Part shown: piece by piece, positions 50,929-62,159 of the stretch
Layout of the letters: the number at the start of each line of letters is the position of its first letter
How positions within the stretch are numbered: position 1 is the first letter of the stretch
Virus record (IMG/VR): IMGVR_UViG_3300023180_000042
Location: 1 to 64,000 of that record
Length of the DNA: 64,000 nt
From: a virus
Direction: 5' to 3' (one strand)
Notes under the pieces: generated by a model
Databases searched by the model: none
What the model was told of the DNA's origin: nothing
What the model saw: only the letters and a program-made list of their open reading frames with translations
Program-made: the position numbers and the translations under genes

Positions 50929-50976
50929 ATCTCTTTAGAGATCATTTTTGGGGGAGCCGCAAGGCTCCCTTTTTTT
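50929..50976 (+). terminator. Intrinsic terminator after gp23
   Basis: A minor hairpin ATCTC-TTTA-GAGAT (50929-50942) precedes a strong one, GGGAGCC-GCAA-GGCTCCC (50952-50969), followed by seven T. It ends the capsid operon. Confidence 0.9.
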
Positions 50977-50983
50977 ATAAATA
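50976..50983 (+). promoter_or_regulatory. T4-type late promoter for secreted protein
   Basis: Exact TATAAATA starting on the last T of the gp23 terminator tract, 86 bases before the ATG at 51062. Confidence 0.7.
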
Positions 50984-51061: not shown

Positions 51062-51442
51062 ATGAGATATACTCTGCTAGTATTAGCATTTTTAAGTACT
51101 TTTGCTATGGCGCATACAATTACGTATGACAATGGAGATGTTTATACAGTGGCTGATGACGAATTCGTTTTTGTGGCAAAGCAAAGCGAATTGTGGACTC
51201 GCCAAGTTTATAACAATGGCAACACGAATCAGTTTAAGAAAATTGTCCCATGGACGAAGGTAGACTATACGCCGCCTGATAATGGGACAAACACTGGCAT
51301 GGTGTTTGGTTCGCACGAGTGGTGTGCGGCCTATGTGCCTTGGTCAGAAGGATACACTTTTGCAATGCAAGCATGGCAACGTTATTGTGATAGCAATAAC
51401 GATGGAGTCTATGACGAAGACGATGAACGCTGGGAAGGATAA
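51062..51442 (+). CDS. Secreted protein with EF-hand/dockerin-like calcium loop
   Basis: 126 residues from the ATG with GGAG 8 bases upstream. Residues 1-17 form a signal peptide (LLVLAFLSTFAMA, cut before H18), so the product is exported to the periplasm or beyond. Two cysteines (C88, C109) could pair. Residues 110-121 (DSNNDGVYDEDD) fit a DxNxDGxxDxxD calcium-binding loop. No family recognised. An accessory gene between the capsid gene and a convergent lipoprotein metalloprotease, sharing a terminator with it. Confidence 0.7.
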   Translation: MRYTLLVLAFLSTFAMAHTITYDNGDVYTVADDEFVFVAKQSELWTRQVYNNGNTNQFKKIVPWTKVDYTPPDNGTNTGMVFGSHEWCAAYVPWSEGYTFAMQAWQRYCDSNNDGVYDEDDERWEG

Positions 51443-51444
51443 AG

Positions 51445-51468
51445 AAAAGGGGCTTGCGCCCCTTTTTT
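51445..51468. terminator. Bidirectional intrinsic terminator
   Basis: Stem AAAAGGGGC / GCCCCTTTT with a TTGC loop (51445-51466), with A-tract and T-tract on either side. It can end transcription of the rightward secreted-protein gene and of the leftward metalloprotease gene, whose stop lies at its edge. Confidence 0.85.
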
Positions 51469-52876
51469 AATAGTAGCAAACTGGATTTTCAAAGTAATAC
51501 ACAAGAGGGTCAGGACTAGGTGCTGGCGAAAAAGCGACGATGTAATCGTCTTCAGCCAGTTGACTCATTCTATATCTGACTCTGTTTAGATGTTTCACAG
51601 CCTGTGTTTCTGGTGGTTGTGTTTCAATAGGCTGTAGGCAGAAACAGCCACCTTTTGTGCCAAGTCTTACTGTTTTACTGTTTTCAGGTATTTCAAAATA
51701 TGCATCATAGTCTGAAAATCTACCAGTAGGCAGATCAGAGTATGACATAACGGTGCCGTAGCCAGCCCAGATCGAATTATCTTCTTTCTCTACTGGTGCT
51801 CGATATTCTGGTAGCAGATAGCCAAACGAATATTCAAAAATGTTTACTGTGCCTTGATGATCACCAAAGTGATGATCGAGTCCTAAAATGTGACCGACTT
51901 CGTGCACGAATGTTTCATGCGCTCGCTCATAGTATCGTGTTGCGGCATAATCCTGAAAGACTGTGTTCTGAAAACATTGTGTGATTCCTCGTGTTTTTTG
52001 GACTCCTCGTGTTCCATCTACTTGAGCAACACCACACGCAATAGGATCTTCCTCTTTCTTTTTAAACAGAAATGCAATGTCAGCCTCTGCGTTTCGTTGC
52101 CACTTTTCGACATCACTAAATTCGTAACGATCACCAAAGAATGCTGTGTACTGCCGCCTTAGATCACCTGCACCAACTTCTACCATTTTTAAATCGACAA
52201 GTCGAAGAACAATATAAACACCAGAATCAGCAAAGACTTTGTTGGCAAAATCCAATTCACGGCGAATGTATTCTTCATGTGTCAAGCCTTCCATGTCTTC
52301 TTCGGTGAGTTTGCTATCAACAACTGCGAGTAAATCGATTACTGCTAGTTGCTCATTATCCACTTCATATGGAAAGTCAACGCCTGTTCGCTGAAGCACA
52401 CCATCACAATTCATGTAGTCATACCAAGGGTGTTTAGTGTCAGTTGGATCAGAAGGGCAAGATGCTGGCGGATCCATCTGAGGAATAAAACCACATTCTT
52501 CAGCATCTTCTTGTATAGTCTCAACCTGTTTGCCACCGTTTCCATCAGCTACGTCTTGCACAAGTGTAAGAAGCTGAATAAATCTATTCTCAGGACTAGG
52601 CTCTTCTACACAGTATGGTTCTGATAAAGGTGTGCCAAATGCGGGTGGAGGTTCATAGCCACATTCTTCTGAATTTTCTGTTTTTTCTACGATCTCGCCG
52701 CCAGCACCATCTGCTGTGACAATTACTAATGTGTGCGGATCTTCACAGTACTCATCTAAAACAGTGCCTTGTGCGGGATGATTAACAACTGGTGGTTGCT
52801 CTATAATAGCAGAAGATTCGTTACCGCCTGAACAACCTACAAGCAGAGCGAATACAAAGGGCATGTACTTAATCAT
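51467..52876 (-). CDS. Lipoprotein zinc metalloprotease (metzincin-like)
   Basis: 469 residues on the minus strand. A lipobox LVGC places the lipidated Cys at C15, so the product is membrane-anchored in a Gram-negative envelope. Residues about 43-74 and 88-130 form a duplicated Cys module (YC ... GGxxVE ... EECGY/F). The catalytic domain has the metzincin motif HExxHxxGxxH (H325, E326, H329, H335 in HEVGHILGLDH) and a Met-turn at M377 (GTVMSYS). It sits alone and reversed within the rightward late genes, with its own late promoter. Possible roles are host-envelope processing, lysis or superinfection exclusion; none is shown. Confidence 0.8.
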   Translation of the reverse strand: MIKYMPFVFALLVGCSGGNESSAIIEQPPVVNHPAQGTVLDEYCEDPHTLVIVTADGAGGEIVEKTENSEECGYEPPPAFGTPLSEPYCVEEPSPENRFIQLLTLVQDVADGNGGKQVETIQEDAEECGFIPQMDPPASCPSDPTDTKHPWYDYMNCDGVLQRTGVDFPYEVDNEQLAVIDLLAVVDSKLTEEDMEGLTHEEYIRRELDFANKVFADSGVYIVLRLVDLKMVEVGAGDLRRQYTAFFGDRYEFSDVEKWQRNAEADIAFLFKKKEEDPIACGVAQVDGTRGVQKTRGITQCFQNTVFQDYAATRYYERAHETFVHEVGHILGLDHHFGDHQGTVNIFEYSFGYLLPEYRAPVEKEDNSIWAGYGTVMSYSDLPTGRFSDYDAYFEIPENSKTVRLGTKGGCFCLQPIETQPPETQAVKHLNRVRYRMSQLAEDDYIVAFSPAPSPDPLVYYFENPVCYY

Positions 52877-52903: not shown

Positions 52904-52911
52904 TATTTATA
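52904..52911 (-). promoter_or_regulatory. Leftward T4-type late promoter for metalloprotease
   Basis: TATTTATA on the plus strand reads TATAAATA on the minus strand, 28 bases before the metalloprotease ATG. It overlaps the rightward late promoter by two bases. Confidence 0.75.
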
Positions 52912-52917
52912 TAAATA
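52910..52917 (+). promoter_or_regulatory. Rightward T4-type late promoter for gp3-like gene
   Basis: Exact TATAAATA, 39 bases before the ATG at 52949, back to back with the leftward late promoter at 52904-52911. Confidence 0.8.
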
Positions 52918-52948: not shown

Positions 52949-53458
52949 ATGGCTGATTTTACATGCGATCCTACATATCTTGCGCCGACTGGATTTAAGG
53001 TTGCGCTTGATCGAAAGAACTATCCAAACATTCAGTTCTTTGCTCAACAAGTACAGCATCCTTCTATGGACATGACTGCTACTGAATTGCCTTATCGTAG
53101 AGTGGGTAATGTTGTTACACCGGGCGATACTTTGTCTTTCGGCACTGTCAGCATGGATATTCTGATGGACGAAAACATGAACGTCTATCAAGAAATCTAT
53201 GACTGGATGCGCAGACTTGTCGAAGAAGAATATAAGTCAAATACAGGCAGACTGCTGTCCACTAATGCGGATGAAATTGGATCATTCTGTGATATCAGTG
53301 TGTCTGTATTGACAAGTCACAATAATATTGGTCGAACAATCAAGTATGTAAATGCACTGCCTACTTCGCTAGGTGACGTACAGTTTGCGGCTACGAGTCA
53401 GGGTGAATACATCACGTTCCCTGTCTCATTCAGATTTGATTATTTTGAGCTAGTGTGA
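52949..53458 (+). CDS. 3: Tail completion/sheath stabiliser gp3-like
   Basis: 169 residues from the ATG at 52949; an in-frame TTG at 52937 would add 4. All-beta tube-like sequence (TGFKVALDRKNYPNIQFFAQ, VVTPGDTLSFGTVSMDILMD, YQEIYDWMRRLVEEE, FPVSFRFDYFEL). Proteins with this pattern between gp23 and uvsY in marine T4-likes are annotated gp3, which ends the tail tube. Resemblance to gp19-type tube folds is also visible, so a second tube protein cannot be excluded. Confidence 0.65.
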   Translation: MADFTCDPTYLAPTGFKVALDRKNYPNIQFFAQQVQHPSMDMTATELPYRRVGNVVTPGDTLSFGTVSMDILMDENMNVYQEIYDWMRRLVEEEYKSNTGRLLSTNADEIGSFCDISVSVLTSHNNIGRTIKYVNALPTSLGDVQFAATSQGEYITFPVSFRFDYFELV

Positions 53459-53501: not shown

Positions 53502-53945
53502 ATGAATTTAGAAAACATTCTTCAGGAGTGGAAGAAAGACTCACATATCGAGTATAACAAACTTGATGTGACTTCGCAAGAGACTCCTAAACTACACGCA
53601 AAATATCTTGAGCTATATAGTAACGCAAAGCTTAAACTCAAAGACGCGGAGTTTAAGCAGAAGGTATTGCTCAAAGACAAGTGGCTATATTACAACGGGA
53701 AGATGCCCGTCGAAACAGTGATTGAGAAAGGTTGGAATCCTGATCCGTTCGATGGTCTAAAAATTCTCAAAGGCGAGATGGATTACTACTACGATAGTGA
53801 TCCTGAGATTATGGCAAGTGAAGCAAAACTCGCTTACATGAAAGAGGTTGTCGATACTCTCAAAGAGATTATGGACAACATTAAGTGGCGTCATTCGACG
53901 ATAAAGAACATGATCGATTGGAAAAAGTTTGAGGCTGGATTTTGA
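53502..53945 (+). CDS. uvsY: Recombination mediator UvsY
   Basis: 147 residues (T4 UvsY is 137). Loads UvsX recombinase on gp32-coated single-stranded DNA. Matches T4 through the N-terminus (ENILQEWKKDSHIEYNKLD), the basic middle (FKQKVLLKDKWLYYNGKM; T4 KKVALKARLDYYSG) and the C-terminus (KNMIDWKKFEAGF; T4 QDMRAFEAG). Followed by uvsW, the standard linkage. Confidence 0.9.
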   Translation: MNLENILQEWKKDSHIEYNKLDVTSQETPKLHAKYLELYSNAKLKLKDAEFKQKVLLKDKWLYYNGKMPVETVIEKGWNPDPFDGLKILKGEMDYYYDSDPEIMASEAKLAYMKEVVDTLKEIMDNIKWRHSTIKNMIDWKKFEAGF

Positions 53946-54082
53946 TTGGATTGCTAGGACTACTGGCTGTGTTTATGTGTCCGATGGTATTTGGTGGCAT
54001 TACGTTTGTTTACTCGCACAGTGCAATACATCAAGAAACCTTAGACCGCTGGAAGCGACAAGAGTACGATGCAAATAATTAA
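53942..54082 (+). CDS. Small membrane protein between uvsY and uvsW
   Basis: 46 residues from a TTG overlapping the uvsY stop (TTGA), with GAGG 7 bases upstream. Residues 2-24 (IGLLGLLAVFMCPMVFGGIT) form one hydrophobic segment, followed by a charged cytoplasmic-type tail (LDRWKRQEYDANN). The end overlaps the uvsW start by 14 bases. Too short for homology by eye; the ribosome site, hydrophobic segment and tight overlap support it. Function unknown. Confidence 0.45.
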   Translation: MIGLLGLLAVFMCPMVFGGITFVYSHSAIHQETLDRWKRQEYDANN

Positions 54083-55550
54083 ACTCAAAATGAAAGACTA
54101 TGCGATGCTTCAGTTGACCGAGTGTGAACCACACATTGTCACTGAACTGTCCGAGCATTTCACGTTTGAGGTACCAGGCGCTAAGTTTATGCCCGCTGTC
54201 AAACGCAGAGTTTGGGACGGCAAGATTCGTATGCTTGATCGAACTACTGGTCAGATAAATGCTGGCTTGTACTGGGCGATTAAGAAGTTTGCGATGGAGC
54301 GCGGCTATGGTATTAAAGTCGAAGAAGGACCATATGGCTATCCATACGCGACCAACAAAGTAAATCATCTCAAAACAATCGAGTGGCTTGACTCGCTCGA
54401 TATGCCTTACAAGCCTCGTGACTATCAGTACGAAGCACTGACACACGCAATCAAATATCGTCGCGCTATTCTGCTGTCGCCCACTGGCTCTGGTAAGTCT
54501 TTTATCATCTACATGTTGATGCGATGGTACTTAGAAAATCGACAGGCGGGCAAAAAGATTCTACTGATTGTGCCTACGACCTCTCTTGTAGAGCAAATGT
54601 ATTCAGACTTCAAAGACTATGGCTTTGACGTTGACAATAATTGTCATCGAATCTACAGCGGCAAAGATAAAGAGACGGACAAAGATATAGTCATCACAAC
54701 ATGGCAATCTATTTACAAACTGCACCCTGTTTGGTTTCACGAGTTTGGTTGCATCTTTGGCGATGAGGTACATGGATTCAAATCAAAATCGCTCTCATCA
54801 ATTATGAACAAAGCTGTAAACGCTGAGTATCGATTCGGCACAACAGGTACACTTGACGGCACACAGGTACACAAATTGGTGCTTGAAGGTCTATTTGGTC
54901 CTGTTCATCGTGTGACTACAACGCACGAACTTCAGCAGAAAGATACGCTGGCTAAACTAAATATAGATATACTATTGCTTCAGTATTCTAAAGAACAGTG
55001 TAAAGAAATGGAGGGCAAGACCTATCAAGAAGAAATTGACTTCATCGTCTCAAACGAAAAGCGAAACAAATTCATTTCAAATCTTGCGGTCGATAGGAAC
55101 GGAAATACGTTGGTTTTATTTAACTTGGTGGATCGTCATGGCAAGGTGTTGCGGGATCTGATTGAAACCAAGCTGAAAGATGGGCAACGATTATTTTACG
55201 TCTCTGGTGAAACCAAAACCAGCGACAGAGAGCAGATTCGGAATATTGTGGAGAAGCAAAAGGATTCTATTATACTCGCTAGTCTGGGTACTTTCTCCAC
55301 TGGCATTAATATCAAAAATATACATAATATTATATTTGCGTCTCCTTCAAAAAGCCAAATCCGTGTCTTACAATCAATCGGAAGAGGACTAAGAAAATCT
55401 GATGATGGTACTGACGCACACTTGTTTGATATTGCAGATGATCTGCATTGGAAGTCACGAAAGAATTTTACATTGTTGCACAGTGCCGAGCGAATTAAAA
55501 TTTATAATAATGAAAAGTTTCCTTACAAAATAACACAAATAGGAATGTGA
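54069..55550 (+). CDS. uvsW: Recombination DNA/RNA helicase UvsW
   Basis: 493 residues (T4 about 500). SF2 helicase that unwinds branched DNA and R-loops, switching replication from origin- to recombination-dependent mode. Walker A SPTGSGKS at 137-144, DEVH box at 232-235, motif III FGTTGTLDG, motif VI SIGRGLRKS. The N-terminal about 110 residues match the small UvsW DNA-binding domain (PGAKFMPAVKRRVWDGKIRM). Confidence 0.95.
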   Translation: MQIIKLKMKDYAMLQLTECEPHIVTELSEHFTFEVPGAKFMPAVKRRVWDGKIRMLDRTTGQINAGLYWAIKKFAMERGYGIKVEEGPYGYPYATNKVNHLKTIEWLDSLDMPYKPRDYQYEALTHAIKYRRAILLSPTGSGKSFIIYMLMRWYLENRQAGKKILLIVPTTSLVEQMYSDFKDYGFDVDNNCHRIYSGKDKETDKDIVITTWQSIYKLHPVWFHEFGCIFGDEVHGFKSKSLSSIMNKAVNAEYRFGTTGTLDGTQVHKLVLEGLFGPVHRVTTTHELQQKDTLAKLNIDILLLQYSKEQCKEMEGKTYQEEIDFIVSNEKRNKFISNLAVDRNGNTLVLFNLVDRHGKVLRDLIETKLKDGQRLFYVSGETKTSDREQIRNIVEKQKDSIILASLGTFSTGINIKNIHNIIFASPSKSQIRVLQSIGRGLRKSDDGTDAHLFDIADDLHWKSRKNFTLLHSAERIKIYNNEKFPYKITQIGM

Positions 55551-56123: not shown

Positions 56124-56702
56124 ATGAAAGAAAACAAACCACATTACGTCAACAACGCTCAGTTTTCTGAGGCTGTTGTCGAGTACGTAAGACACGCCAA
56201 CTCTGAAACCGAGGCTGGTAATCCAAAACCCATCGTGCCAAACTACGTTGCAGAGTGTTTTCTGAAGATCGCAGAAGGCTTGTCTCATAAGGCTAACTTT
56301 GTGCGGTACACGTACCGTGAAGAGATGGTCATGGACGCTGTAGAAAACTGTCTTAAGGCTATCGAGAACTACAATCTTGAAACTGCTACTCGCACAGGCA
56401 AACCCAACGCATTCGCATACTTTACACAGATTGCATGGTACGCATTTTTGCGCCGTATCGAGAAAGAGAAAAAGCAACAGGACGTTAAACTCAAGTTCAT
56501 TGCCGAAGCAGATATCAGTCAATTTATGGAAAACGCTGATGACATTGATATGAGTGACGATACCACATTCTCTTTCATTGAAGAATTACGCTATCGAATT
56601 GACGCTGTAAAAGAAAGCGATCGAATGTTCAAAGAATATGCTACAAAAGAAAAGCGCCGCCGTAAAGCAAAAGTAGACTCAGACTTGACACAGTGGTTAT
56701 AA
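56124..56702 (+). CDS. 55: Late-transcription sigma factor gp55
   Basis: 192 residues (T4 gp55 is 185). Directs host RNA polymerase to TATAAATA promoters together with gp33 and the gp45 clamp. Conserved blocks: YVNNAQFSEAVVEYV, IAEGLSHKANFVRYTYREEM, NAFAYFTQIAWYAFLRRIEK (T4 [20 protein letters not shown]), the region 2-like core. Its presence explains the many late octamers in the window. Confidence 0.93.
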   Translation: MKENKPHYVNNAQFSEAVVEYVRHANSETEAGNPKPIVPNYVAECFLKIAEGLSHKANFVRYTYREEMVMDAVENCLKAIENYNLETATRTGKPNAFAYFTQIAWYAFLRRIEKEKKQQDVKLKFIAEADISQFMENADDIDMSDDTTFSFIEELRYRIDAVKESDRMFKEYATKEKRRRKAKVDSDLTQWL

Positions 56703-59753: not shown

Positions 59754-60428
59754 ATGGAACTAACTGAAAAGACGTTGACTGTTCTGAAGAACTATGCAAC
59801 GATTAACCCTAACGTTGTGATCAACAATGGCAACGTAATCAAAACAATCTCTGAGGCTAAGAATGTTCTTAGCAGTGCTGAGGTTGACGTTGAGTTTCCC
59901 AAGCAGGTCGGCATCTATGACCTGAGCGAGTTTCTCAGCGTCTTGTCTTTGGTTGATTCGCCACGTCTTACATTTGAAGACAACAACTTTTTGATCAGTG
60001 ACGGTAGTGGTCGCACTCGTATCAAGTACTTTTACTCTGATATAGATATGCTTACTGTCCCGAGCAAAGACATCATCATGCCTGAGTGTGAGGTATCTTT
60101 CTCTCTGGATCGTGAGACGTTGACCCGAGTGAAGCGAGCGGCTTCTGTTCTTGGTCACACTGAAATGTCTTTGTCTGTTGTGAATGATGTATTGCAGTTG
60201 TCTGTAATCGATCAGAACGACAAGACTTCGAACGTATTCTCTATCGACGTTGATGGTGAGTACAAAGACGCAAATTTCAACTTCGTATTCAACATTGCGA
60301 ACTTGAAGATGGTTGATGATGATTATCGAGTTGATATCTCATCTAAATTGATTTCTCATTTTGTCAATGAGATTAGCGGTATCCAATACTGGGTAGCACT
60401 TGAAAAAACTAGCACTTACGGAGAATAA
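59754..60428 (+). CDS. 45: Sliding clamp gp45
   Basis: 224 residues (T4 gp45 is 228). Trimeric DNA-polymerase processivity clamp that is also the mobile activator of late transcription with gp55. Pattern: LTEKTLTVLKNYATINPNVV, DVEFPKQVGIYDLSEFLSVL, FSLDRETLTRVKRAASVL and SHFVNEISGIQYWVALE. Own host-type promoter; follows gp46 as in T4. Confidence 0.94.
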   Translation: MELTEKTLTVLKNYATINPNVVINNGNVIKTISEAKNVLSSAEVDVEFPKQVGIYDLSEFLSVLSLVDSPRLTFEDNNFLISDGSGRTRIKYFYSDIDMLTVPSKDIIMPECEVSFSLDRETLTRVKRAASVLGHTEMSLSVVNDVLQLSVIDQNDKTSNVFSIDVDGEYKDANFNFVFNIANLKMVDDDYRVDISSKLISHFVNEISGIQYWVALEKTSTYGE

Positions 60429-60843: not shown

Positions 60844-61782
60844 ATGTCTAAAGATTTTCTCTGGGTTGAGAAGTATCGTCCTCGCAAGGTAGAAGACACA
60901 ATTCTACCAAAAAAACTGAAAGAAGTTTTTACAAAGATCGTGCAGTCTGGTGAATTGCCTAACATGCTTTTTACCGGCACTGCTGGTCTTGGTAAAACTA
61001 CCGTAGCACGAGCAATCTGTGATGAACTTGGCTATGACTACATTGTCATCAATGGTTCTGAAGAAGGTAACATCGATACGCTACGTGGCAAAATCAAGCG
61101 TTTTGCATCCTCTGTCTCTCTAGGTGGCGATGTCAAGGTCGTCATCCTAGACGAGGCTGATTATCTAAATCCTCAATCGACACAGCCAGCTCTTCGTGGC
61201 TTCATTGAAGAGTTTTCTGATAACTGTCGATTCATTCTGACTTGTAACTTCAAGAATCGAATCATCGAGCCGCTTCACTCTCGGTGTGGTGTATATGAAT
61301 TCAATACGACCAAGAAAGAGATGCAGACTCTCTGTGCCGATTTCTTTGTGCGATTGATCCACATTCTTGAATCTGAGCAAGTCGCATTCAACAAAGACCT
61401 GCTTGCACAACTGATCATGAAGTACGCCCCAGACTGGCGGCGTGTAATCAATGAGTGTCAGCGGTACTCGATTGGCGGTCAATTGGAAACTACAGTTCTC
61501 AATAATGATGCAAGTGGTAACTACGATTCTCTTTTCAAGTCGCTCAAAGACAAAGACTTTAAAAAGATGCGCAGTTGGGTCGCTCAGAACGTAGACGTTG
61601 ATGTGTCTGCAATCTTTCGTCAAATCTATGACAACATGTACGAGAAAGTGGACGCATCTTCGATTCCGCAACTGGTGTTGATTCTTGCTGACTACCAGTA
61701 CAAGAATGCCTTCGTTGCTGATCATGAGTTGAACATCGTCGCATGTATGACTGAGATCATGGCAAACGTGGAGTTTAAATAA
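60844..61782 (+). CDS. 44: Clamp loader large subunit gp44
   Basis: 312 residues (T4 gp44 is 319). AAA+ ATPase that with gp62 loads gp45. N-terminal FLWVEKYRPRKVEDTILP, Walker A GTAGLGKTT at 45-53, Walker B VILDEAD at 100-106, arginine-finger SRC at 146-148. GGAG ribosome site; stop overlaps the gp62 ATG by one base. Confidence 0.96.
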   Translation: MSKDFLWVEKYRPRKVEDTILPKKLKEVFTKIVQSGELPNMLFTGTAGLGKTTVARAICDELGYDYIVINGSEEGNIDTLRGKIKRFASSVSLGGDVKVVILDEADYLNPQSTQPALRGFIEEFSDNCRFILTCNFKNRIIEPLHSRCGVYEFNTTKKEMQTLCADFFVRLIHILESEQVAFNKDLLAQLIMKYAPDWRRVINECQRYSIGGQLETTVLNNDASGNYDSLFKSLKDKDFKKMRSWVAQNVDVDVSAIFRQIYDNMYEKVDASSIPQLVLILADYQYKNAFVADHELNIVACMTEIMANVEFK

Positions 61783-62159
61783 TGAATCCGTTTGACTATG
61801 TGACAGCCATTAATCATGGCAAGCAAGACATCATGGACGATGATTTGAAAGAGAAAGCCTATAACTCTTTTCTGACAAATCGATCACTAAGTTATTTTCC
61901 TGATACCGTTGCCGCGGCTAACGTTATGAATCAGTTTCACCACTTGGATAACAAGTTACAATTTCATTTTTTACTAAATATAGTAAGAAAGCGAAAGCGG
62001 TTCTCTAAGTGGGAGAAACAAGAGACTTTCGATGACGTGGAAGCGGTAAAGGAGTATTATGGATACAGCAACGAAAAAGCACGTTCGGCTTTATCCCTCC
62101 TTTCACCTGATCAAATTAATGAAATAAGAACAAGGATCTACAAAGGTGGAAGAAAATAG
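61782..62159 (+). CDS. 62: Clamp loader small subunit gp62
   Basis: 125 residues (T4 gp62 is 187, so this is a short form, as in marine T4-likes). Begins MNPFDYVTAINHGKQDIMDD and contains YNSFLTNRSLSYFPDTV, followed by a basic helical region (LNIVRKRKRFSKW). Single gp62 plus four gp44 form the loader. Coupled to gp44 by one-base overlap and overlapping regA by 14 bases. Confidence 0.88.
   Translation: MNPFDYVTAINHGKQDIMDDDLKEKAYNSFLTNRSLSYFPDTVAAANVMNQFHHLDNKLQFHFLLNIVRKRKRFSKWEKQETFDDVEAVKEYYGYSNEKARSALSLLSPDQINEIRTRIYKGGRK

Follow-up and report, generated by a model that had tools for sequence, protein, structure and literature searches.

The window analyzed here comprises 64,000 nt of a 74,322-base contig that stems from a T4-like marine phage. 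The genes recognized on the contig are gp23, gp3/tail tube, uvsY, uvsW, gp55, gp47/46, gp45, gp44, and gp62, and nearly all of them are oriented rightward. At the locus under study, a leftward gene for a lipoprotein metalloprotease and a rightward gene for a tail tube protein are arranged back to back (Table 1). Cyanophage records name the counterpart of the latter gp3 or tail completion. The original prediction had placed a lipoprotein metalloprotease on one side and "gp3-recombination genes" on the other; the Reprolysin_3 match identifies the former as reprolysin/metzincin-like, and the latter name is acceptable because the gp3/tail tube gene is followed by uvsY and uvsW. The metalloprotease unit ends at a bidirectional terminator that also ends a convergent rightward unit, which encodes a small exported protein without a Pfam or PHROG match. 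Members of the family of this exported protein occur in at least 113 IMG/VR stretches (L319-L398 among the loci), on either strand and adjoining gp23 or gp3. Upstream of the exported protein gene, the T-run of the gp23 terminator nearly merges into the next late octamer (50950-50983), and such terminator-promoter fusions recur in many relatives, including L139, L151, and L157.

Table 1. Features of the locus and of the late transcription machinery, with window coordinates.
Feature	Coordinates	Strand	Basis or remark
Small exported protein gene	51062-51442	+	inverted homologue is the minus partner in L130-L132
Late octamer directly past the gp23 terminator	50976-50983	+	serves the exported protein gene
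Bidirectional intrinsic terminator	51445-51466	both	GGGGC stem-loop, T run on either side
Metzincin/reprolysin-like lipoprotein metalloprotease, 469 aa	51467-52876	-	Pfam Reprolysin_3 E=1.3e-9; lipobox LLVGC and motif HEVGHILGLDH in the translation
14-bp perfect palindrome TATTTATATAAATA	52904-52917	both	pair of gp55-type late octamers that overlap; proposed late promoter for both directions
Minus late octamer TATAAATA	52911-52904	-	-13 to -6; predicted start A 52898, leader 22 nt
Plus late octamer TATAAATA	52910-52917	+	predicted start A 52923, leader 26 nt to ATG 52949
Sigma70-like site TTGATA-18-TATAAT	52949-52920	-	11/12 consensus match; faces the metalloprotease gene
Tail tube/cyanophage "gp3" tail completion protein	52949-53458	+	phrog_45 tail tube E=2.6e-30; annotation of syntenic genes
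uvsY recombination mediator	53502-53945	+	PF11056 E=7e-32
uvsW helicase	54069-55550	+	PF21241 and helicase domains
gp55 late sigma factor	56124-56702	+	phrog_234 E=7e-49; solved T4 gp55 7d7c_F E=3e-13
gp45 sliding clamp	59754-60428	+	phrog_223 E=8e-69
gp44 and gp62 clamp loader	60844-62159	+	phrog_168, phrog_225

The gap between the two divergent genes contains the 14-mer TATTTATATAAATA, which is its own reverse complement and is present only once in the contig. It holds one exact TATAAATA on each strand, and the bases 52910-52911 are common to both octamers, exactly as had been predicted. On both strands the octamer agrees with the T4-type sequence, which has T or A at -13, and the two octamers amount to symmetric -10 elements that overlap, one per strand, as in bidirectional promoters. 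When the published octamer register of -13 to -6 (PMC1524935) was applied, the two predicted starts were 25 bp apart. The minus octamer is located 27 nt from the metalloprotease ATG at 52876, while 15-34 nt separate most plus octamers from their genes. Together with the shared terminator, this normal spacing gives the metalloprotease gene the layout of a full transcription unit that starts at the palindrome. The leader RNAs of both predicted transcripts lack a notable fold.

Late octamers are enriched in the window, with 14 observed versus 2.4 expected from sequence shuffles. Twelve of the 14 are intergenic, and an ORF on the same strand follows within 70 nt in every case. Thirteen are on the plus strand, and the only one on the minus strand is a half of the palindrome; for the whole contig, the numbers are 14 and 1. 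The window has a single credible gene on the minus strand, and this sole minus octamer precedes it. With 13 plus octamers and upstream DNA of 62% AT, only 0.012 palindromes would be expected by chance. The palindrome is thus not a product of chance, and it is very improbable that an AT-rich stretch 5' of one octamer simply happens to read TATTTA.

The sigma70-like site offers another way to transcribe the metalloprotease gene. The plus octamer alone would then work, the metalloprotease would be expressed early or middle, and the minus octamer would be incidental. This explanation can draw on the high similarity of the site to the consensus and on four relatives (L161, L162, L165, and L167) in which the upstream ORF is on the minus strand yet lacks a minus octamer, so that not all reversed genes at this position carry one. 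However, the site overlaps the leader and the start codon of the plus gene, which are constrained, and it is degraded in L130, while L130 retains both octamers unchanged. In addition, the only minus octamer would have to coincide with the only minus gene. We therefore regard transcription from the sigma70-like site with an incidental minus octamer as unlikely.

The original prediction had named conservation in relatives as a check, and the palindrome was indeed found to be conserved in some of the 40 IMG/VR loci that carry the plus (gp3/tail tube) gene. A plus octamer precedes this gene in every relative examined. The complete palindrome is kept in the close relatives L128, L129, and L133, and also in L130-L132, the tube proteins of which are 85-86% identical. 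In the latter, all 14 bases are retained, while the remaining gap has largely diverged and has another length; that a sister lineage keeps the site although its flanks have changed again argues against chance. The minus gene of L130-L132 does not encode the metalloprotease but a 127-aa exported protein. Within the family of this protein, represented by 46 distinct upstream regions, an octamer within 150 nt was found only for the inverted L130-type copy. Conversely, loci with gp23 directly upstream (L135-L137, L139-L141, L144-L151, L158, and L159) have the plus octamer without a minus octamer. The palindrome has probably been exploited by inverted cargo genes. A general enhancer function of the palindrome for the plus promoter was also considered, and it was rejected because the sequences 5' of the plus octamer are unrelated among the relatives.

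A further relative, L138 (578-1175), carries an HNH-type gene inserted into this gap on the minus strand with its own minus octamer, which is 72 bases away and faces the plus octamer. Because the two octamers face each other, the predicted transcripts would overlap by about 54 nt. This arrangement is another answer to the same need. L122-L125 carry close copies of the metalloprotease gene; L126 and L127 have a homologue with 54% identity in another phage context. As the L126 and L127 homologues have different neighbors and no octamer, they provide no test of the promoter.

Similar sites also exist in cultivated phages. In 23 T4-like isolates, the 14-mer was found once, in Pelagibacter phage Mosig (60971-60984), where it is located exactly between divergent genes with a minus start at 60954 and a plus start at 60990. 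A tighter interlock, TATTTATAAATA, in which the octamers share four bases, is present once in T4 (116450-116461) and once in RB69 (118641-118652), in both phages between the divergent genes 26 and 51. The exact 12-mer TATTTATAAATA is absent from the equivalent gaps of RB49, 44RR, and RB43. The 44RR gap (L414) contains the shorter symmetric TATTTAAATA where the interlocked octamers of T4 lie, and RB49 has a near match; TATTTAAATA is possibly a variant symmetric late promoter, and both cases are suggestive only. No divergent octamers 0-20 bases apart were found in 15 isolates, so octamers that do lie close together are interlocked.

The recurrence in IMG/VR was quantified with a control palindrome, TATATTTAAATATA, that has the same composition as the 14-mer. 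Among the matches listed, from contigs that were not all T4-like and with genes defined by simple ORF calls, the 14-mer was located in a divergent gap at 20 of 118 distinct sites, compared with 3 of 113 for the control (Fisher p=2.7e-4). A within-contig comparison gave the same picture: among the matches listed, 20 of 57 14-mers (35%) were in divergent gaps versus a background of 15.5% for the other gaps (p=2e-4), while the control palindrome had no divergent excess over its same-contig background. The excess also extends to contigs that lack a second late octamer, and when only contigs that have one were considered, the intergenic numbers (7 of 19 versus 3 of 15) were too small to separate the two palindromes. 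The 14-mer is also found inside genes and in co-directional gaps, such as the terminase/tail sheath gap in L022, L064, L072, L100, and L112, and symmetry by itself is therefore no proof of a second product. This distribution is the one point in favor of chance, against which the divergent enrichment over the control of identical composition has to be set. If the palindrome in the terminase/tail sheath gap worked both ways, the terminase gene would be transcribed late in the antisense direction. At another divergent palindrome (L007, 3652-3665), the distance to the minus ATG is only about 6 nt, a spacing at which the late mRNA would be leaderless. The presence of such sites between back-to-back genes, T4 included, suggests a recurring and little-noticed design. 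In the searchable literature, we found no account of T4-type late promoters that are divergent and interlocked, though T4 carries one at 26/51, and no report of late starts in this T4 gap.

T4 late promoters, which depend on gp55, gp33, and gp45, consist of a -10-like octamer and lack a -35 element (PMC2988020, PMC7892883), which leaves the octamer and the clamp as the sole determinants of orientation. The site described here shares with them the exact TATAAATA at -13 to -6, normal leader lengths, and the presence of gp55 as well as clamp and clamp-loader genes in the contig (PMC1524935, PMC2988020). Whereas the T4 late promoter is a one-way site, here two octamers are interlocked head-to-head in a perfect palindrome. 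The 26/51 gap of T4 and RB69 is alike in having overlapping consensus octamers between divergent genes; however, four instead of two bases are common, the predicted starts are 23 bp instead of 25 bp apart, and genes 26 and 51 are both baseplate genes, whereas one of the genes here is cargo. The bidirectional promoters of E. coli (acrA/acrR and bioA/bioB type) resemble the site in their symmetric -10 region, their use in both orientations, and steric exclusion (PMC12825309). Their known divergent starts are 10-23 bp apart, with small variation allowed (PMC12825309), and they use sigma70, an optional -35 element, and DNA-bound activators, whereas here gp55 would act without a -35 element, and the expected activator is a directional sliding clamp. 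By its sequence, the palindrome would represent a known class of promoter in a bidirectional form, one that recurs in T4-like phages. The perfect two-fold symmetry would also be expected of a site bound by a dimeric protein such as a repressor, and the palindrome could be an operator of this kind instead of or besides a promoter pair. However, the site is made up precisely of two late consensus octamers that are in register, T4 and RB69 join the same two octamers by a different overlap of four bases, and the contig has a single copy; an operator is thus highly improbable.

Therefore, we think it likely that the site at 52904-52917 acts as a late promoter in both directions, dependent on gp55, and that it supplied inverted cargo genes with a late start. 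The sequence, the gene order, the conservation, the recurrence elsewhere, and the presence of gp55, gp45, gp44, and gp62 support this view, and so the prediction of two overlapping late promoters that face the metalloprotease and gp3/uvsY/uvsW in opposite directions gained support, with initiation on both strands being what we infer from these features. Because T4-type late promoters have no -35 element, the octamer palindrome should be readable by the gp55 polymerase either way. Rightward transcription from about 52923 would yield the gp3/tail tube, uvsY, and uvsW RNA, and leftward transcription from about 52898 would yield the metalloprotease RNA, which would stop at the terminator at 51445-51466. 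As to the order of events, the gap between gp23 and gp3 would have taken in cargo genes, and symmetry of the resident gp3 promoter would have provided an inverted cargo gene with a late start at a cost of six bases.

A polymerase on the palindrome would shut out the other. The open T4 late complex is unwound from -12 to +2 (PMC7892883), and hence the two predicted bubbles would abut at 52910/52911, leaving no room for two polymerases. Mutual exclusion is thus a sound structural inference, and this part of the original prediction, that only one polymerase could sit there at a time, is fair. The further step to a switch or balance, in which competition between the orientations would set the ratio or timing of the metalloprotease versus the gp3 and recombination genes, is not supported. 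In its favor, overlapping -10 elements cannot hold two polymerases (PMC12825309; bubble size PMC7892883), and in E. coli, strong activation of one direction can lead to competition and repress the other (PMC12825309); clamp-activated late promoters may be strong. However, bidirectional E. coli promoters have no measurable competition at basal activity (PMC12825309), no regulator site was found, and the palindrome is paired with unrelated minus genes in different lineages. The latter argues against a dedicated circuit and fits better with economical promoter sharing. Overall, a true regulatory switch seems rather unlikely, although a little less so than transcription from the sigma70-like site.

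A promoter of this kind would carry the concept of bidirectional promoters beyond the host sigma70 and into the gp55 system with its clamp activation. In T4, the polarity of late activation was switched when the nick was moved to the other strand (PMC2988020). As the core is symmetric and a -35 element is lacking, the part of the promoter that is recognized by sequence has no direction of its own, so that the direction would be set by the facing of the gp45 clamp. It is conceivable, though we would put it forward only tentatively, that the clamp orientation, and thereby replication or nick polarity, picks the direction, and that the site reads fork direction as gene choice. As direction in the gp55 system should depend on the orientation of the sliding clamp, the natural symmetric site would be a clean test template for a coupling of replication polarity and gene choice. 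For reversed cargo genes of T4-like phages, our results suggest a route to late expression, in which a late promoter already in place is completed to a palindrome.
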